Positions 8,140 to 35,715 of a stretch of 64,000 nt of DNA are shown here, one piece after another. The notes under the pieces are model-generated. The model did no database searches. It was given only the letters and a program-made list of their open reading frames with translations, and was not told the DNA's origin. This stretch comes from Anadara kagoshimensis (lineage: Eukaryota; Mollusca; Bivalvia; Arcoida; Arcidae), in contig CM037871.1 in assembly GCA_021292105.1 (NCBI GenBank), positions 16,375,960 to 16,439,959 of the forward strand, in the 5' to 3' direction. Positions within the stretch are counted from its first letter, which is position 1; every line of letters starts with the position of its first letter. A program made the position numbers and the translations under genes.

Positions 8140-8640
8140 ACTAAATCATTATTAGTAACTTTAACACAAATTTTGACAATCGTCAAAGATGGTCTTCAGT
8201 CCTATTCAGAAAAAGTATATTCTACATTTGGAATCAACCAAATGTTGATTCTCAAAAATTCTAAAGAATTACTTCAACATCTTGCTTCTTATACTTCATC
8301 TCATGCAAAAAATATTTTTTTTTATTTTCTACACTATACACCACTATCTCTCATTCTAAATTGAAATGGCGTCTTAAAGAAATTATTCACTTACTATTCT
8401 TTTACAAAAACGGTAAGCCAAGATACAAATATCTGGTGCTGAACAGAGATTCTGGTTATTTTGTCAAGCATCATACGGATTCCAAACAAAAATATTTGAA
8501 GAAACCTAAAACAGAATGTTGTAGTTTTTGATAGATAACTTATTTATTGTGTCTGGTAATATAGTTTTTCAGCAAACAATCGGTGTACCAATGGGTACAA
8601 ACGGTGCACCATTGATTGCTGATTTGGTTCTTAGTTAGAA
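8140..8640 (+). pseudogene. Reverse-transcriptase pseudogene fragment (RT core)
   Basis: The frame from 8525 to 8638 reads FLIDNLFIVSGNIVFQQTIG followed by VPMGTNGAPLIADLVLS and a stop. This is the conserved PMGTNxAPL box of the dominant RT family (the usual Cys is Gly here). Weaker homology with frameshifts extends upstream to about 8140. It is cut off before the YIDD box. The adjacent (AT)n tract is close to the 5' limit. Confidence 0.65.
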
Positions 8641-8796
8641 AGTTCATAGAACAGCGTATTCAGCCTAGCGTAACACACATTATTTTTTACTTATTTATAC
8701 AACACAACATTCCGCCATTTTAAACATATCAAGTTTATTTGTCACAACAAATTTATGTAATTCTCAAAAGCATTCAAAGTTGGTGACCATCAAGCA

Positions 8797-9024
8797 ATGA
8801 TGGAAAATCAAAATGTTGAGTTTAGGGCATTAATAAAGTTCCTCGCAGTAAAGGTATCAAATGCCAAAGAAATTCACCGGCGAATGGCCGAGGCGTACGG
8901 TGACAGTGGTCCTGTCTATTCCACAGTGGCAAAATGATCAGCTGAATTTAAACGTGGGCGCACCTCACTAAAGGATGACCCACGGTCAGGTCGGCCAGTT
9001 GATACCATCACAAAGGAAATTCTC
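8797..9024 (+). pseudogene. Mariner-type transposase N-terminus (HTH region), truncated
   Basis: The frame from ATG 8797 contains FRALIKFLAVKVSNAKEIHR, then AEAYGDSGPVYSTVAK, a TGA at 8935-8937 where the family has Trp, then SAEFKRGRTSLKDDPRSGRP. This is the Mos1-type HTH DNA-binding domain of a mariner transposase. Coding similarity stops at about 9024, where it joins the truncated DIRS-like element. The catalytic DDD region is absent, so it is dead. Confidence 0.85.
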
Positions 9025-15114: not shown

Positions 15115-15141
15115 TTTTAGAAACAACACATTTTGTTCGTC
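15115..15141 (+). other. Alternative splice acceptors upstream of the EXD1-like ATG
   Basis: Two acceptors are possible. The AG at 15113-15114 follows a better pyrimidine tract and leaves an in-frame TAG at 15118-15120, making the ATG at 15142 the true start and this segment 5'UTR. The AG at 15119-15120 starts an exon at 15121 that is open in frame upstream of the ATG, leaving room for a further N-terminal exon. The choice decides whether this is a short 259-residue protein or the C-terminal part of a longer one. Confidence 0.5.
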
Positions 15142-15461
15142 ATGCCGAATTTGAAGCTTGTCACTTCAGTGGCCGCCTCTAACAAGGCTGTACATAAACT
15201 ACTATGTTTAGACAGACCTGTAGTAGGGTTAACACACAAGGGCGTTAACAAGGGCGTAGACGGTAAGTATAATAGAAATAGAAGGAAATATTTTTTATCA
15301 TAACTATTTAATTTTTTTGTCATTTTTAATTTCTAATTTATCACATGTATTTTTAACACACACACACCACACGCGCGCACACACACACACATTGCATACA
15401 TTTAATATAATATAATATATATTATTGCGTACAATTTAACACACACTTTAACAAACATATC

Positions 15462-15496
<35 letters not shown>

Positions 15497-18400
15497 TTAC
15501 TGCTGTATATTGAATGTACATGTATATTTTTTCGCTAATTTTTATAGATGGCCGTGTCTCATAAGTCTTTTAGGCTGGATGTCATGATATTTTATTTTTG
15601 TATTGTATATGTTATTATGTATGTTTTATGGCATGTGACACGTTAATAAAATAAATTATATATAGTATAGATAGCAATAAGGGCAAGATCGATAATTATT
15701 TGATAATTATCAAGGCGATTAAAAGTTTTTAGCGTCATCACAAACTTATATGATGTTTCTGTGTCCAAAATTATTCTAGATATGTTTGACGTCCCTTAGT
15801 TCCATGTACCTTTCATTCCAAATTTTAATGTTACACTCTGGGGCCGGGGGTGAAGCCAGCCAAACAGGAGGTGATATCTTTTTCGGATCACCGGACTTCA
15901 CACCCTTAAGATTAGTGGCGGCAGGTAAATGTAAAAAGTCTTGTATGACAAGTCATAAGTTTAAACGTAAAATCTTGTAAGACTTCAAATCTTATAAGAT
16001 TTGTATTATATGATTAATCTTGTAGTGAAAACCCCACTTTAGGTAACTTTACTTGAATAGTCATCATGACCCAAGGTGTGTTATAATCGTGAACCAATGT
16101 TATAACAGAAAGGACAACTTAACATCGCAGGAAAACATTAAATTCCTGTAAATGTTGGGGGCGGGAGGAGACAGTTCTAGTTTTCACTCATGCTTTTATT
16201 TTATTCAATTTGTCATCCATAGGGACTATAACACTCGTCGCCGTATCCACATTCGATGGTGACGTCTATTTATTTGATATCAAGACATGTCCGGACATAA
16301 TGTTGCTGGGAGGATTAATACGGTTATTACAGTCTGTGGAAGTTGTTAAGGTAAATATATATATATGGAATCATCATGTCCGTCTGACCATCTGGTCGTC
16401 TGTTTGTCCGTCCAAATACCGTGTCCTCTCCAAATCTTCTATGTCAATGAATGAACTTTCACTAAAAATTTTCTTTCATTCAAAATGTTCCGTCCCTTAG
16501 TTCCATGTTTTTTTCATTCTCTCTCTTTTTTAATTGTTCACGTGACCAGTGTAGCTAGCTAGTCCCGATGTGCTCATCCGGTCTCAATTCCGTGAAGGAA
16601 GTTCACGTGCTTAACTTAAACGTTATTTTCCAGTTTTCAACGATTTACTTTGCTTTTGAAATTGTGATTTGAACATGAGCAGGTATGTTGTGTTTGATTG
16701 GTACCTCTACATATTAGTTTTTGAGGACTTAAAAATACCTCGTGTCACACACGAAGGCTCGTTGACTTATTGCATAGAAAAATATTAAACTCGTTTAATA
16801 AATTCAATATTACTTAAGCACTCATGGTATATATAAGACCCTCTATATAGTGCATTGTATATTTATCAGTTTTAACATTCCTATACAATTTTTTGTTTTG
16901 ACAGGTTGTACACGACTGTAGTCTTATAAGTGTCCTGTTACATAAGAGATATGAAATTACTCTCAAAAACTACTTCGATACACAGGTATGGCGTATAATT
17001 TACACTAAAGTTAAATCACAAAAATCTAACTCACAAATTGTAACTGTTTCATTTAAAGAACAGGATCAGGCCCCAGTTTGACAATTATTTCTTAACTAAG
17101 ATTTCTCTTAAATCAAATTTTACAAATTTAAAATATTAATGATTTTGTAAGATATTCGGGAATTTAAGATGTCATTTTGAAGATCATTAAAAGCTTTAAA
17201 CATCTGCATTCAGTGTTTGTCAAAAATGGTTCCAATAAATATTGTTAAAACTTTCTTAATTTAGGTTAAGAAAAATCTTAGTTGTCATGTGCTGTTTTTT
17301 AATTTCTATTAAAATAATGCATTCAAAAACAGCAGTTGTCATGTGCTGTTTTTGAATGCATTATTTTAATAGAAATTCAAAAACAGCACATGACATAGTT
17401 AAGGAATAATTGTGAAACTGGTCCCTGGAATACAATCATTCCTTAACTTGAATTGAAATAATGAAATATATGTGTTAATTTTTTTTCAAGATATTCAATA
17501 ATGTTGGGGTTCATTCTAAAGATTCAAGCTTATGAAAGCAGTTTCTAGTTATGTGGAAAATTTAAATTCTTGGCCCCATGAAAGATTGCTAAAATTAGAA
17601 AACTGTATCTTAATGTACAGTGTCCGCCTGTCCGCTCGAAAAAATTATCGATAATCAGCCCTCTTGATACTGAACGCAAGATCTTTTAATAATTGAATCT
17701 TAACTATGATCCGACCGGGTTCAAACCAACGGAAGCTCTAACGCTGGGCCACCGAGGCAGTCGAATAAATTAGGAGTATGAAAGAAACTAAAAGATCTTT
17801 TGAAAAAAAAAATGAAAATAGTCGAGTCCACAATTACAGGTATAAAGGGAATATAATAAATACATTTATTACATTATGATATGATTTTACTCTGATATCT
17901 TTGTTTTGATTGGTTAAACTACTTGCACGCGCGACACCATTTTTCATCATATTGCACTCTGGAACATGATGAAAGATCATATTGCATTATGCTAATCAAA
18001 TCCATCGTTGGAAACTACAAGCGACACAAGTCAGCTGAAGAAACTAGAAGAAAGAACAAGTTGGCAAAATGGTGCAAGTTATAATTTCATTGTCTTATAA
18101 ATTTATTACAATTGATCATTTTGTTGTTAATTATTATTTTGAAGATAATTAATAATTACAAATTTAAACTATAACAATGGCCCTCTTGTTTTAAAATACA
18201 GTCAAACCTGTCAATAAAGGTTACTTAAGGGAACTAGTAAAAGTGGCTTTTATGGGCAAGTGACCTTTATATATATATATATACAGGTTCAAGTAATATG
18301 AATAAAGAACAATTGGGATACAATTCTACTGTACTTTATAAGCAGATGACCCTTATATAGAGGTGACCTGTAAGTCAGGTTAGACTGTAGTTTACATGTA

Positions 18401-21161
18401 ATAAAACAATTATAGTATATTTTTTGCAGATTAAGTTTTTTCGGTTTAAAATTACAGAACAAAGTGAAAGCAGATTATGTCATCACAAGTAAAACGTGTT
18501 TTACCAGTTACGTTGTTAAAATTAAGTTTATTTTTATAGATAATACCTGAGTGTAAATAAATATACTCATTGTAGTTAACAAAAGTACAGTCCTGCCCAA
18601 AGTTTAACACTTAGCTAACGAATCGAATACGCTCATCTCGGTCCCTCGTTAGATGCCATCTGTCTAGGTAACTTTTCGGTAACTGTTATCTATCTCTCCG
18701 AAACCTTTACCAGCTCTCTAGCTATAGCTGTCCAAAATTATATCCGGAAAACCGAACTTTGACTCTTTTTTATTTGCTCGGTGTTAAATTTTTGACAGGT
18801 CAGTATCATACTAGATAAATACGGTAATATCGATTATATGTCTGTTTAAATAACGAAATATAAATATTCTATATAAATTTAAAAAAAAAAAACTCTTCTT
18901 TACAAATAGCGTTTATAATTAGTTACGTCCAATTAAATTGAAGAAGGTAAATGAATATTTCATTTTGAAATAGAGTTGTGAAATGGTGTTTAATGCCCAT
19001 ACCAAGATTATTTAATATTATCGGGGCGGCTATTTCTGTGATTTTTGAGGAAACTGGAATACCCAGAGGAAATCTTCAGCCATGACACTAGGATCTACCA
19101 GGAAATGCTTCAACCCTAGCCGATGATCAGAGGCGTTGCAATCCATAAACGCGCTTTAGACCACTCAGCCACAAAACACATATGCACAAACTACAGTACG
19201 GACCTGTCGAAAGTGTAACACTGAGCTTACGAAAAGGAGTCAAAGCTCGGCTAACGAGAGGCCGAAACATAGACAGCTAGTGGCTGAAACATAGACAGCT
19301 AGAGGCCGAAACATAGACAGCTAGTGGCCGAAACATAGACAGCTAGTGGCCGAAACATAGACAGCTAGAGGCCGAAACATAGACAGCTAGTGGCCGAAAC
19401 ATAGACAGCTAGAGGCCGAAACATAGACAGCTAGTGGCTGAAACATAGACAGCTAGAGGCCGAAACATAGACAGCTAGTGGCTGAAACATAGACAGATAG
19501 AGGCCGAAACATAGACAGCTAGTGGCCGAAACATAGACAGCTAGAGGCCGAAACATAGACAGCTAGTGGCCGAAACATAGACAGCTAGAGGCCGAAACAT
19601 AGACAGCTAGTGGCCGAAACATAGACAGCTAGTGGCCGAAACATAGACAGCTAGAGGCCGAAACATAGACAGCTAGTGGCCGAAACATAGACAGCTAGAG
19701 GCCGAAACATAGACAGCTAGAGGCCGAAACATAGACAGCTAGTGGCTGAAACATAGACAGCTAGAGGCCGAAACATAGACAGCTAGTGGCCGAAACATAG
19801 ACAGCTAGAGGCCGAAACATAGACAGCTAGTGGCCGAAACATAGACAGCTAGAGGCCGAAACATAGACAGCTAGTGGCCGAAACATAGACAGCTAGAGGC
19901 CGAAACATAGACAGCTAGTGGCCGAAACATAGACAGCTAGAGGCCGAAACATAGACAGCTAGTGGCCGAAACATAGACAGCTAGAGGCCGAAACATAGAC
20001 AGCTAGTGGCTGAAACATAGACAGCTAGAGGCCGAAACATAGACAGCTAGTGGCCGAAACATAGACAGCTAGTGGCCGAAACATAGACAGCTAGAGGCCG
20101 AAACATAGACAGCTAGTGGCCGAAACATAGACAGCTAGAGGCCGAAACATAGACAGCTAGTACCCGAAAAGCTGTCGAGAGATAGATACCATCTGTGGAA
20201 CAGGTGTCAAGACATAGCCTAGCGAGATGAACTGCCGATTCGTTACCAATACATTAGCTTCGTGTTAAACTTTCGACAGGCCTGTTTAGACGTTGACTCA
20301 CATGATAAGAAAACTTCATAGTGACTTGAAACGAATGAAATAATTTTTTATTAATGATAATAGGCATCGTCAAGGAAATACCAAAGTACACAAAATATTT
20401 TTTTACTTTTTGCCGTTTTAAATCTTGCTTAATTTGCATGGCTCGGGCATGTCTAATGACTCGCTTTAGAAAACGTTACTTTTCCGTAGCACCCGGCCTC
20501 ACTTCCCTGGTGGAAGTTCCTGTGTTTAAACTGATTTGCAAACTCTTTACTTTTGTTTGGGGTTGTGGTTTGAACATCGATTGATATTTTTGTTTTTGAT
20601 GTGCTTTAAAAAGTGTGACTGACTAGATTTGCTTTATGCCAATAAATACTATTATTATATTATTATTATTATTATTAATTTTTTTTATGTAATAAAGATT
20701 GACATTTCCGATCACAGCAATGATGATAGGCTTTATATAATTATAACAAGTTATACTATAAACCAGGAAATTTTGCGTCATTTATTTTTTTTATTTATTT
20801 GTTTATTTATTTGTTTATTTATTTATACCATGCAATCGGACATCTATGTACTGATTATTTCTCATAGTTGCTTAACCCCAAGGAGACTTCTGATGGAGAA
20901 AAAATTTATGTAACATTAATATTATAGAGCCTTCCTTAAATAAAACATTTTACAAAAATAATTTAAAATTTTGCCCAGTTTTTTTTCCATTAATTTCGCG
21001 CCGAAATACTCCCGTCCATTTATACGAAAGTAATAAGAACGCGAAAGTTTTAGATATACAGTGGTTTTAGTCCATCAAATATGTTTTTTCGAACATCAAC
21101 ATAGATGGACATTTATTATTAATATTAGATTGAATTAATATTTATTTTATTATTATTACAT

Positions 21162-21224
<63 letters not shown>

Positions 21225-23660
21225 CAGATTGCTTACTCCGTTATAATGGAATCAAGAGGACTAACACGGAGAAAAATATCTCTTCAGAGTTTATGTGACA
21301 AGTATTATATAAATGTTTATAGACCTCCTCCTGATATACAGGTATGTGTTTTTGAAAAATGCATCTGTGGTTTAATTTATCAAAGAGAGTGAAGAGTTAA
21401 GTAAAGGTGTTTTACGTCCCTGAGAACATTTCACTTAAATCGAGACGTCGCAAGATATAGACGAAGGTTGCAAAAATTTTGCCTGTACGATGCGCTGATG
21501 GCATTATACACTACGGTCCTTTTTCGTGCCACACGGAACCTCGTTTCCATCCGAAAGAACTGTGACTTTTATTTCGTACTACCATGAGCTTGGCGAAAGA
21601 ACAGTCACTACTAACTTTCTAGTTTTGTGTCGGACCTGATCGAAGTTCGAACCAACGACCTCCCACTTACGGAGCGAACACTCTCCCAACAGATCTACTG
21701 CTGTGGTTCATTTGTCAAAACCAAGAATATGCAACTTTATCATGGTTATTCTAATAAGTGTGAAGATTTCATAAAAATGACATGTTTTGTCAAATTGCAT
21801 GATGATGTAATATATACTAATTTGTAAGAAAGAGTGCATGTATACATGTCGCTTGCCTCTACACATCTTTTCATTGATCATGACACACAGCGACGAACAT
21901 TAGCGCCCTTTGGAAACTTTTTCTTCCATTCTCCCAATTGCAGAATGACTTAATAAGATCATTAAAGGTATCCTTGCAAAAAAAATAATAAAAAATAAAA
22001 AAAACCTATACATAGTTTTATGTAAATAAAAGATAATTATAACCAAAGTCAAGTGTTGCATGTATTTAAATGCCGGTATACTCAACGCCTGTCAAAAGCA
22101 AAGAGGCAGAGTTATAAATGCGTGTGTGCACATTATGCTTCCTTCCTTTGTAATGCATGTAGTTACAACATACCATATACAACAACAAGGATGCGTGGTT
22201 TTCGAGAACGCGCTATTGTATTTCTAATATCATATCCATATAAGATGCAAATGTTGTAACTAGCTTGTAACATGATGCGACGTCTTTCCTCATTGACCAA
22301 GGAATGTTGTATTGACAATTGATTTTGATTGTGTCTTGTTAGCTGTGATTGGTTCCTATTTATATTGCAAAGACCATATAATTTTAATTATCTGATGATT
22401 TTCATACTTTATTCTCTCAGTACAGAAAAACGTGCTATATACATCTCTATTTTTTTCTCTCAGCGCAAAATGCATGACGACATTAATTTCTGGGGACTTC
22501 GGCCCGTGACCAAGGTTATGTCAAACACAGCAGCTGCAGAAGTACTGCCTTTGGTACCATATCTTTACGAAGAATTATGTGGGTATGTTGATTTTATGAA
22601 CATCAAACACAAACATGTCAATCCATGCTGAAGCAAAGTCTAAGCAAAGTAAACACTTTGAAAAACTGGCAAAATGAGTTTTCCACGTGAACTGAACCCA
22701 CGGAAGTGAGGTCGTATGCACCGGAAGAGTAGGTATATCCCTTCTAGCTTCATCCGCCACTTGTGAATGAATTATTTTCACCATTATTTAACACGACACT
22801 AGCCAAGACCGATCTAAAGCTTCTGTATCTATCAATTTAAAATCCACTTTAAAAAGGGGCATTTCGTGTTTGAAATTTGTGTGTTTATAATCACGGAATT
22901 GATCAGAAAAACTACATTGTATTATGTATTGAGTATTATCCCTCATTCCGTTTTACTGCACTTGAAATACCTACACCTCGTAAAATATTAAACTTAGTGC
23001 TACGAATACGTTGCTATTTGAAAACAAATTAAGAGTACAATATAATTCAAGAAATATAACACTATGTTGTTTTAAGACTTATAATAAGAAAATCTGTAAT
23101 CAGTCTAATGTGTACCCTCTTAATGTTGAAAATGTTGATTATTCTACCAACACATGGCGGCCATATTGAATTTTGGCAGCCATTTTGAATTATATGTGTG
23201 GCCATCGTTAAATTTCTATTCAGTAAGTATAAAACTACCATCATGCAAAATTTCATGCTTGTATCACAATTTGAAAGATTGGCCTGAAAAAAATGTTTTA
23301 TCTGCCCCGATAGCTTTAGAAAAGCTTCATTGTACCCGAAAATCGAAAAACCACGCTGGTCACATGACAACACTTGCACTTCCCGTCGTTTGGATTTTTG
23401 GTTTATCCAACAAGTTTAATATTTTTTCAATCTTATACTGTAGGAAACTTATGCCTGACGCATTTGAATGGTTTGACTCTCTGAGTGAAGAAAATAGAAT
23501 GTCAAAGATAACGGAAAAAACGATTGAGAAGAGACGCAATCAGAGACGAAGGCAGGATTTTATGGACCATATCTATGAATACCCGGTCACAAGATTATCA
23601 GAGGAACAAAAACATCTGGCTAAGAACACTGTCCCGGAAACCCATCATCTTATTTCTTGA
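15142..23660 (+). CDS. EXD1/Egalitarian-like 3'-5' exonuclease-domain protein, probably catalytically dead (six exons)
   Basis: Coding exons read directly: 15142-15262, 16223-16350, 16905-16985, 21228-21341, 22464-22582 and 23444-23660 (TGA stop). All introns are GT-AG with matching phases (1, 0, 0, 0, 2), giving 259 residues. The domain runs from about residue 5 to 190: a VVGLTHKGVNKG segment (27-38) where the DxE motif I belongs, the beta-strand TLVAVST plus VYLFDI, KVVHDC (83-88), YFDTQIAYSVI spanning the exon 3/4 junction, FWGLRP (157-162) and an AAAEV helix (171-175). A basic stretch EKRRNQRRRQ lies at 216-225. Relative to the family, motif I D and E are Thr31 and Lys33, motif II D is Ile91, and motif III D is Glu174, so hydrolysis is unlikely. 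Known: mammalian EXD1 is an inactive nuclease acting as an RNA adaptor in piRNA biogenesis; Egalitarian is an mRNA-transport adaptor. Inferred: a similar RNA-binding role. The LSm-like N-terminus of vertebrate EXD1 is not visible. The start is uncertain: an acceptor at 15120 would keep the frame open seven codons upstream. Confidence 0.85.
15357..15494. repeat. Two (AC)n tracts in EXD1-like intron 1
   Basis: Runs at 15357-15390 (with CG interruptions) and 15464-15494, separated by AT-rich sequence. Confidence 0.9.
15715..15925 (+). repeat. RT-family 3' fragment in EXD1-like intron 1
   Basis: Ordered blocks CGTCATCACAAA, TTTGACGTCCCTTAGTTCCA, AGCCAGCCAAACAGGAGGTG and TCACCGGACTTCAC match the plus-oriented copies at 62485-62830 and 50690-51130. 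Confidence 0.65.
16480..16715 (+). repeat. RT-family 3' tail in EXD1-like intron 2
   Basis: Starts TTCCGTCCCTTAGTTCCATG, then GTGTAGCTAGCTAGTCCC, GGAAGTTCACGTGCTTAAC and ACTTTGCTTTTGAAATTGTG, ending with the ACATGAGCAGGTATGTTG terminus. It begins only about 130 bases after the exon 2 donor. Confidence 0.65.
17066..17430. mobile_element. Palindromic MITE in EXD1-like intron 3
   Basis: The outer ends CCAGTTTGACAATTATTTCT (about 17072) and AATAATTGTGAAACTGGTCC (about 17405) are inverted repeats with a few mismatches. Inside lies a 51-bp inverted repeat, 17284-17334 against 17344-17394, with one mismatch and a 9-base spacer. No coding capacity. Confidence 0.8.
17640..17770 (-). mobile_element. 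tRNA-like SINE head fragment
   Basis: On the minus strand, GGTGGCCCAGCGTTAGAGC resembles an A box and GGTTTGAACCCGG a B box, about 35 bases apart. No family body follows clearly, so it is a degraded SINE head or tRNA-derived pseudogene rather than a working tRNA. Confidence 0.5.
18198..18390. mobile_element. MITE, CAGTCAAACCTG...CAGGTTAGACTG family
   Basis: The terminal repeats TACAGTCAAACCTGTCAATA and GTCAGGTTAGACTGTAG are inverted. The middle holds TATATAGAGGTGACC and TTATATATATAT. It is in EXD1-like intron 3 and matches the copies at 1317, 13144 and 37740 in reverse. Confidence 0.8.
18585..18806. mobile_element. TIR element copy B (CCTGTCGAAAGTTTAAC family)
   Basis: The left end GTACAGTCCTGCCCAAAGTT and the right end GTGTTAAATTTTTGACAGGT are diverged inverted repeats. 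It is a short single-unit copy without internal amplification, in EXD1-like intron 3. Confidence 0.7.
18975..19178 (-). mobile_element. SINE with a Ser/Leu-tRNA-like head
   Basis: On the minus strand the head reads GTGGCTGAGTGGTCTAAAGC, a class II tRNA-like A box. The opposite end reads AATAATCTTGGTATGGGCAT then TAAACACCATTTCAC, close to the tail of the other SINE family. The same head type occurs at 31477-31785. Confidence 0.65.
19192..20287. mobile_element. TIR element copy C carrying a large 22-bp minisatellite
   Basis: The left end TACAGTACGGACCTGTCGAA, continuing AGTGTAACACTGAGC, is the inverse of the right end TTCGTGTTAAACTTTCGACA, continuing GGCCTGT. Between them lie the minisatellite (19259-20162) and about 120 bases of unique element sequence with a CTGTCGAGAGATAGATACC module. 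It sits in EXD1-like intron 3 and is noncoding. Confidence 0.85.
19259..20162 (+). repeat. 22-bp minisatellite, about 41 copies, with 44-bp higher-order alternation
   Basis: The unit is GGCCGAAACATAGACAGCTA plus GT or GA. Two variants (ending GT and GA) largely alternate, with a few places where the same variant is repeated and a few GGCTG variants. The array is highly homogeneous, so amplification is recent. Confidence 0.97.
20470..20600 (+). repeat. RT-family 3' tail in EXD1-like intron 3
   Basis: GTAGCACCCGGCCTCACTTC, TGGTGGAAGTTCCTG and the TTTGGGGTTGTGGTTTGAAC block match the family terminus. Confidence 0.65.
21161..21224 (+). repeat. (TTTA)n microsatellite forming the intron 3 polypyrimidine tract
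   Basis: About 16 TTTA units run to within three bases of the CAG acceptor (21225-21227) of EXD1-like exon 4. The tetranucleotide run is the only pyrimidine-rich tract at this acceptor. Confidence 0.95.
21393..21706 (-). mobile_element. tRNA-headed SINE in EXD1-like intron 4
   Basis: On the minus strand, the head TAGATCTGTTGGGAGAGTGT (A-box-like) and GGTTCGAACTTC (B box) precede the body with AAAGTCACAGTTCTTTC and ATAATGCCATCAGCGCAT and the tail ACGTAAAACACC. It starts only about 50 bases after the exon 4 donor. Confidence 0.8.
22645..22775 (-). repeat. RT-family 3' tail in EXD1-like intron 5
   Basis: Minus orientation: AACACTTTGAAAAACTGGCA, CACGTGAACTGAACCCACGG, AAGTGAGGTCGTATGC and a TCCGCCACTTGTGAATGA terminus. 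Confidence 0.6.
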
Positions 23661-28454: not shown

Positions 28455-29155
28455 GGCAGTAAAGCAGTGGCCGATCTGTTTGAGGGCAGATCAAAGCAGG
28501 AGGGTAAAACTGTAGCTGTTTTTTCTGAGGGCAGATCAAAGCAGGACGGTAAAACTTTCGCCGTTTTGTTTGAGGACAGGTCAAATGGGGACGGTAACAC
28601 CTTGGCTGTTCTGTTTGAGGGCAGATCAAAATAGGACGGTAAAACTGTGGCTGTTCTGTCTGAGGGTAGGTCAAAGCAGGACGGTAAAACTGTGGCTGTT
28701 CTGTCTGAGGGTAGGTCAAAGCAGGACGGTGAAACTGTGGCTGTTCTGTCTGAGGGTAGGTCAAAGCAGGACGGTGAAACTGTGGCTGTTCTGTCTGAGG
28801 GTAGGTCAAAGCAGGACGGTGAAACTGTGGCTGTTCTGTCTGAGGGTAGGTCAAAGCAGGACGGTAAAACTGTGGCTGTTCTGTCTGAGGGTAGGTCAAA
28901 GCAGGACGGTGAAACTGTGGCTGTTCTGTATGATGGCATATCAAAGCAGGACGGTAAAACTGTGGCTGTTCTGTTTGAGAGCAGATCAAAACAAGACGGT
29001 AAAACTGTGGCTGTTCTGTGTGAGGAAAGATCAAAACAGGACAGTAAAGCTGTGGCCGTTCCGTCTGAGGGTAGGTCAAAGCAGAACAGTAAAGCTGTGG
29101 CTGTTCTGTCTGAGGGCAGGTCAAAGCAGGACGGTAAAGTTGTGGCTGTTCTGTT
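28455..29155. repeat. 45-bp minisatellite, about 15-16 copies
   Basis: The unit is about GACGGTAAAACTGTGGCTGT followed by TCTGTCTGAGGGTAGGTCAAAGCAG. Central copies (28640-28920) are nearly identical; flanking copies diverge. Because 45 is a multiple of three and the unit has few stops, long overlapping frames of 178-227 codons exist on both strands. These are judged repeat artefacts, not genes. Confidence 0.95.
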
Positions 29156-34861: not shown

Positions 34862-35715
34862 ATACAGTACAGACCTGTCGAAAGTTTAACACCGAATTAA
34901 CGAAAACGCGTCGAAGTTAGGCTGCAAAAATATGGATAGCTAATGGTCGAAAGGCTGTCGAGAGATGGGTATCTAGTGGTCGAAAGGCTGTCGAGAGATG
35001 GGTATCTAGTGGTCGAAAGGCTGTAGAGAGATAGATGGCAGCTGCGGAGGTACAAGGCATACCTGTCGAAAGTTTAACTCCGAACTAACGAAAACGCGTC
35101 GAAGTTAGGCTACCGATATACGGATAGCTAGTGGTCGAAAAGCTGTCGAGAGGTAGATGTAGATAGCACCTATGGAGGTACAGTACATACCTGTCGAAAG
35201 TTAAACACCGAACTAACGACAACGCGTCGAAGTTCGCCTACCGATATACGGATAGCTAGTGGTCGAAAAGCTGTCGAGAGGTAGATGTAGATAGCACCTA
35301 CGGAGGTACAAGACATACCTGTCGAAAGTATAACTCCGAAGTAACGAAAACGCGTCGAAGTTAGGCTACCGATATACGGATAGCTAGTGGTCGAAAGGCT
35401 ATCGAGAGATAGATAGCAACTGTCGAGGCACAGTACATACCTGTCGAAAGTTTATCACCGTGGTAACGAAACGGAGTCGAAGCTAAGCTTTTAAGTGGTA
35501 GATATATGGAGAGCCAGATAGATAGAAACTGTCTGTCGAAAAGCTGCCGAAATAACCAGCGGTCGAAATTACTGCCGATTCGGCACCGATTCGTTAGCTC
35601 TGTTTTAAGCCTTCGACAGGTCTGTACTGTATACATAGCTAACGAAGGGCCGAAAAGATGTGCCGATTCTACTCTTACTCGATAAATTAGTGTTAAACTT
35701 TCGACAGGCCTATAC
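34862..35715. mobile_element. TIR element copy D with five left-end modules in tandem
   Basis: ACCTGTCGAAAG left-end modules start near 34873, 35061, 35187, 35317 and 35439 (spacings about 188, 126, 130 and 122). Each is followed by AACGAAAACGCGTCGAAGTT-type sequence and a TGGTCGAAAGGCTGTCGAGA module. The first module also has three copies of a 32-bp subunit (about 34946-35040). Right ends CTTCGACAGGTCTGTACTGT (about 35610) and ACTTTCGACAGGCC (about 35697) close it. Confidence 0.85.

Follow-up and report, generated by a model that had tools for sequence, protein, structure and literature searches.

The stretch analysed here, a window of 64,000 nucleotides from the bivalve Anadara kagoshimensis (assembly GCA_021292105.1, contig CM037871.1, positions 16,375,960 to 16,439,959 of the forward strand; coordinates below are counted from its first letter), contains on its plus strand, at 15142..23660, a gene for a protein that appears from alignment to have the exonuclease fold of Drosophila Egalitarian with its active site replaced. 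Six exons, with a GT donor and an AG acceptor at all five introns, join into 780 bases made up of 259 codons and a TGA stop, as the initial annotation had proposed when it described six exons in one open frame. Exon 1 (15142..15262), delimited by the open frame and a GT donor, supplies the start codon, the N-terminal segment and motif I (GLTHKGVN), in which the codons ACA CAC AAG at 15232..15240 encode T31, H32 and K33 in place of D-x-E. Exon 2 (TITLVAVSTFDGDVYLFDIKTCPD..., 16223..16350), bounded by an AG acceptor and a GT donor, is gapless against Egalitarian. The next three exons were each placed by splice sites and alignment: exon 3 (16905..16985) houses the motif II region VVHDCSLIS together with FDTQ, and its ATA codon at 16926..16928 specifies I91 where the motif II aspartate is expected; exon 4 (21228..21341) encodes R124, R125 and K126, at or next to the positions of the RNA-contacting Lys657 and Lys659 of Egalitarian; and exon 5 (22464..22582) encodes FWGLRP and motif III, in which codons 170-174 (T A A A E, 22527..22541) replace Y-x-x-x-D. 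In each motif the replacement is read from the codons and the alignment. Exon 6 (23444..23660), recognised by its open frame, carries the beginning of an adjacent helical domain and the TGA stop codon.

The alignment to Egalitarian covers residues 26-225 of the predicted protein, residue 26 pairing with Egalitarian residue 556, and it crosses all five junctions; over this span the splice pattern is thereby well supported. Residues 1-25 and 226-259, the first 25 and the last 34, are defined by the open frame, homology offering them no support. Shortly before the ATG, at 15118-15120, stands an in-frame TAG, and there may be an additional upstream exon, coding or non-coding. The G+C content of the exons is 0.40 overall (0.33-0.46 individually) against 0.32-0.36 in the introns, with exons 3 and 4 not rising above the introns. 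The replaced codons all lie inside exons and none falls at a junction, and the idea that alternative splicing restores the missing residues was dropped for this reason. A tblastn search of the window at E values up to 1 returned only the gene's own exons and no spare exon bearing the acidic residues; a six-frame motif scan of the window for such an exon gave a single, unrelated match; and tblastn over 100 kb on either side of the window, at E up to 5, revealed neither a spare exon nor a tandem copy. Intron 3 (16986..21227, plus strand) owes its enlargement to 4242 bases to an inverted-repeat element at 19198-20285, which carries, at 19260-20169, some 41 tandem copies of a 22-bp unit. A second element bounded by inverted repeats, at 34862-35632, contains instead a 128-bp array (35006-35489); both elements hold CCTGTCGAAAGT, and they look like a non-autonomous family with internal satellites.

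The gene had been described initially as EXD1-like. EXD1 is an adaptor of the PIWI-interacting RNA (piRNA) pathway in the mouse, where it is a partner of TDRD12. The predicted protein matches the Pfam profile PF01612 (E = 3.6e-8; 33.9 bits, above the cut-off of 23.6), and its best relative of solved structure is the exonuclease-homology domain of Drosophila Egalitarian (PDB 9uju, 9rvy; E of about 2e-30, 109 bits), with Bombyx EXD1 next at 39 bits. Sequence identity is 67 of 196 aligned residues (34 percent) with Egalitarian, against 29 of 114 (25 percent) with Bombyx EXD1; in a three-row MAFFT alignment, in which three end columns against Egalitarian are plainly misplaced, the corresponding counts are 68/200 and 31/113 columns. 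A tree was built from 11 rows (10 of them distinct) over the columns of residues 26-186, with the five active-site columns included, Egalitarian and EXD1 being represented by the aligned segments of their PDB matches; two copies from the same genome that each carry an in-frame stop were left out. The gene and Egalitarian fall on one side of a single 99/99 branch, with EXD1 and a set of genes on contig C2 of the same genome on the other, and the tree program warned that long branches meet. These comparisons put the gene closest to the Egalitarian family, and the EXD1 kinship first proposed is not borne out.

In the MAFFT alignment T31, K33, I91, T170 and E174 occupy the D, E, D, Y and D columns of Egalitarian (the motif I residues of which, counted by hand, are D561 and E563), so that each substitution named at the outset is correct. 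The accompanying statement that all four acidic positions are replaced holds for the three that are truly lost; it overstates the case for motif III, since E174 is a change from aspartate to glutamate and still acidic. Misalignment is unlikely, because the active-site columns come out identically with five less closely related genes of this genome that retain D,E,D,Y,D. Egalitarian and Bombyx EXD1 agree at 33 columns, of which the gene keeps 22, whereas none of the five active-site residues survives. The retained signature motifs include FDTQ, FWGLRP and the VVHDC region, which the initial annotation had also listed. The D,E,D,D and tyrosine catalytic set of PF01612 is thus absent, and the gene is not classed as an active exonuclease, in keeping with the first view of it as a dead nuclease: the protein is very probably a non-catalytic one of the exonuclease fold. 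By a hand count the replaced codons (ACA, AAG, ATA, ACA, GAA) differ at 11 or more of 15 bases from any codons for D, E, D, Y, D, and on this ground the loss of the active site does not look recent.

The initial annotation had suggested inspecting the acidic residues in paralogues of the same genome. At least 16 matches were returned by a PF01612 profile search of the genome, which scores a limited candidate set frame by frame, so that all such counts are lower bounds. The matches on contig C2 form a cluster present as two near-copies in opposite orientation, at 39.40-39.45 Mb (minus strand) and 40.94-41.01 Mb (plus strand), and comprising loci L002-L007, L033 and L034. Their matched parts lie in single open frames, two copies (L007 and the second at L034, those left out of the tree) containing a stop. 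Five open copies (L002-L006) keep D,E,D,Y,D, while three open copies at L033/L034, found with a stop-bearing copy around two weaker matches, read D,K,I,H,D; because the cluster at 39.4 Mb is almost a duplicate of that at 41.0 Mb, these represent about three and about two distinct genes, respectively. The C2 genes share the fold of the gene studied here, and the L033/L034 open copies also share its motif I lysine and motif II isoleucine. They differ from it in their low identity to it (21-24 percent), in having the matched part in one frame and in retaining the aspartates of motifs I and III. Of the eight open C2 copies, all except L002 and L005, which terminate sooner, also carry a longer tail with CxxC pairs. 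Ratios of non-synonymous to synonymous substitution (dN/dS), which pertain to the C2 copies and not to the gene under study, are 0.40-0.50 at a synonymous divergence (dS) of 0.05-0.44 for the three pairs of D,K,I,H,D copies, and 0.24-0.94 at dS 0.01-0.25 for the ten pairs of D,E,D,Y,D copies; in the 15 pairs that join one group to the other, dS is saturated.

On the tree, the active site must have passed between the intact and the lost state at least twice. If lost residues are never regained, the tree reads as three losses, one each for the present gene, Bombyx EXD1 and the C2 group, and the lysine of motif I and isoleucine of motif II common to the gene and the C2 group would most simply be convergent, a reading subject to the long branches and to the presence of the active-site columns in the tree. 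The initial suggestion of a loss parallel to that of EXD1 agrees with this: the 99/99 branch separates the gene and Egalitarian from EXD1 and the C2 copies (11 rows, long branches). The further suggestion that the loss is more extreme than in EXD1 fares less well: Bombyx EXD1 has S, D and L where T, K and I stand here, but only these three columns can be aligned, motif III of EXD1 being unaligned.

On balance, the gene is probably a free-standing Egalitarian-type pseudonuclease, whose product most likely serves as a non-catalytic module that binds RNA or a ribonucleoprotein partner. The core of the fold is predicted to be retained, while of the four metal-binding carboxylates only one remains, as a glutamate, and the catalytic tyrosine is missing too, for which reason two-metal exonuclease chemistry should be impossible. 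K33, if it faces E174, could substitute for the missing metal ions and hold the pocket closed. The protein would then act as a dead-enzyme binding module, its ligand being either RNA or a protein partner within an RNA-protein complex. Such a role is made plausible by Egalitarian itself, the putative catalytic residues of which lie about 15 Å from the RNA and are needed neither to bind RNA in vitro nor for the protein to function in vivo, according to a 2026 cryo-electron microscopy study (PMC13186709). The same study reports that mutation of Lys657, Lys659, Arg686 and Arg687 in the exonuclease-homology domain impairs RNA binding, and that deletion of the adjacent domain (residues 744-816) severely reduces it. 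By alignment and hand count, R124, R125 and K126 stand at or near the columns of the first pair of these residues.

Comparison with known proteins places the gene more exactly. It has in common with Egalitarian the segment of exonuclease fold and the motifs FDTQ, ISLxSLC and FWxxRPxT, but Egalitarian keeps D,E,D,Y,D where the gene reads T, K, I, T, E. Egalitarian also has LOTUS-like N-terminal domains, a site for dynein light chain and the adjacent domain (744-816) (PMC13186709), none of which was recognised in the gene, the upstream exons having been searched in part: Pfam found no LOTUS match in eight upstream frames (five on the same strand, where 70 frames of at least 40 residues exist). 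EXD1 of Bombyx (PDB 5fiq, 5fis) has the same fold segment and likewise lacks the aspartates of motifs I and II (S and L), but it scores only 39 bits and lies on the other side of the tree. The MAEL domain of Maelstrom is described as a DEDD fold that lacks catalytic residues and binds RNA (PMC4408791); it belongs to a different domain family with a structural zinc, and its likeness to the present gene is one of class only. Animal pseudonucleases are said in PMC8097288 to include EXD1, SMG5, Maelstrom and Exuperantia, and among the literature matches listed there was no report of EXD1-like pseudonucleases in molluscs. Planarian egal-1 keeps the N-terminal domain and light-chain motif of Egalitarian with no clear exonuclease active site, and its central region of 67-71 residues recurs in proteins of molluscs, annelids and brachiopods; whether this region is related to the exonuclease domain is left open by the authors (PMC12579938). 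The present gene is the reverse of these Egalitarian-like proteins, having the exonuclease fold without the remaining parts of Egalitarian. From its sequence, we would place it among the DEDD-fold pseudonucleases, a known class to which it adds a member.

Several results weigh against a conserved binding module of this kind. The second RNA-contact pair of Egalitarian, Arg686/Arg687, is matched by His152/Asp153 (alignment, hand count); the adjacent domain is aligned over only about its first 16 residues, the alignment ending at Egalitarian 759; and the C-terminal 90 residues by themselves found no Egalitarian match in a PDB search at E up to 10. The tetrahelical domain of Egalitarian (744-816) is therefore not recognisable as such here, and, with the second contact pair and most of this domain unconserved, an RNA clamp like that of Egalitarian could at most be partial. 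Single-sequence AlphaFold2 was uninformative (mean predicted local distance difference test score 32), and the K33-E174 contact was not measurable on the model. The PF01612 genome search did not list this gene itself, and therefore misses intron-split genes, so that more closely related copies that contain introns and still have their active site may have gone undetected. Finally, the branch leading to the gene is 2.68 changes per column long, against 0.29 for Egalitarian, which fits relaxed constraint equally well.

The last point leads to the alternative that survives best: an Egalitarian-like copy, already inactive, may have lost its use too recently to have gathered stops or frameshifts. 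To gauge this, neutral substitution decay of the gene was simulated in 400 runs per divergence level, and the frame stayed free of stops in 221, 91, 29, 5, 1 and 0 runs at 0.02, 0.05, 0.1, 0.2, 0.3 and 0.5 changes per site. The rarity of stop-free frames from 0.1 changes per site upwards argues, within this model, that selection has held the reading frame for most of the time since the residues were lost, and would point to a long-term function. The simulation ignores insertions and deletions and recent loss of function, and both its frequent stop-free frames at 0.02 and 0.05 and the stops in the related copies L007 and the second L034 speak for a young pseudogene, as do the long branch and the incomplete adjacent domain. 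On the other side stand the intact GT/AG sites of all five introns, 259 codons without stop or frameshift, the preserved signature motifs and the E value of about 2e-30 to the fly protein. A young pseudogene or relaxed constraint is a minority view here, to be taken seriously and yet unlikely.

Much less probable is a piRNA-pathway adaptor role like that of mouse EXD1, with a TDRD12-like protein as partner. The motif II Ile-Ser does resemble the Leu-Ser of Bombyx EXD1, and PMC5481186 names EXD1 as a partner of TDRD12 in slicer-triggered piRNA production. The gene nevertheless groups with Egalitarian at 99/99, with 34 rather than 25 percent identity, and the EXD1-side genes of this genome are found on contig C2. 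As EXD1 kinship is not supported, neither is a piRNA adaptor role by descent, which seems unlikely.

A bolder extension of the preferred reading, that of a non-catalytic Egalitarian-type module, is that Egalitarian has been split in this lineage, an Egalitarian-like protein keeping the dynein and BicD ends but no recognisable exonuclease-homology domain, and the separate, catalytically dead gene preserving that domain and supplying RNA recognition in trans. The idea arises from PMC12579938, which sees little likeness to the exonuclease domain in planarians and does not decide the matter, and it is offered as speculation, more improbable still than the piRNA role. That the gene is a captured or domesticated open reading frame (ORF) of a mobile element is very unlikely: the window is rich in repeats, and DEDDy ORFs occur in retroelements of bdelloid rotifers (PMC5408684), but the gene is interrupted by five introns and is related to a host gene family, and no relative was confirmed in phage records by tblastn or in viral contigs and prokaryote genomes scanned with a few peptide patterns. 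Least credible of all is an exonuclease still active through an unusual metal site of E174 and other acidic residues, for, although E174 is acidic and D108 of FDTQ is kept, a lysine stands at a metal-binding position, isoleucine at motif II, and no acidic residue lies within two places of I91 (S89 L90 I91 S92 V93).

A relative that lacks the very residues that Egalitarian can dispense with, while keeping the core of the fold, would offer a natural test of this fold as a binding module in animals. Taken with the partly inactivated EXD1-side copies, which have the same K and I in the same two places, the gene would also point to repeated loss of the active site within one genome.

Elsewhere in the window, an open frame at 8761-8934 (plus strand) gives a sub-threshold match to the Mos1 transposase HTH_48 profile (E = 0.0011; 19.5 bits against a cut-off of 24.1) and is perhaps a mariner remnant. 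A short frame nearby, at 8525-8635 (plus strand), for which Pfam returned nothing, contains FQQTIGVPMGTNGAPL, which we take to recall a reverse transcriptase motif. An array at 28459-29154 consists of 15.5 tandem copies of a 45-bp unit and can be read through in several frames of both strands, and open frames of similar repeats are found 7-12 kb upstream of the window. Further upstream, about 20, 72 and 96 kb away, are three similar frames for glycine-rich proteins of 295-360 residues (loci L009-L018). Downstream of the window, at 90556-91527 in window coordinates (minus strand), is a frame of 324 amino acids of forkhead-like appearance, presumably FoxB-like.

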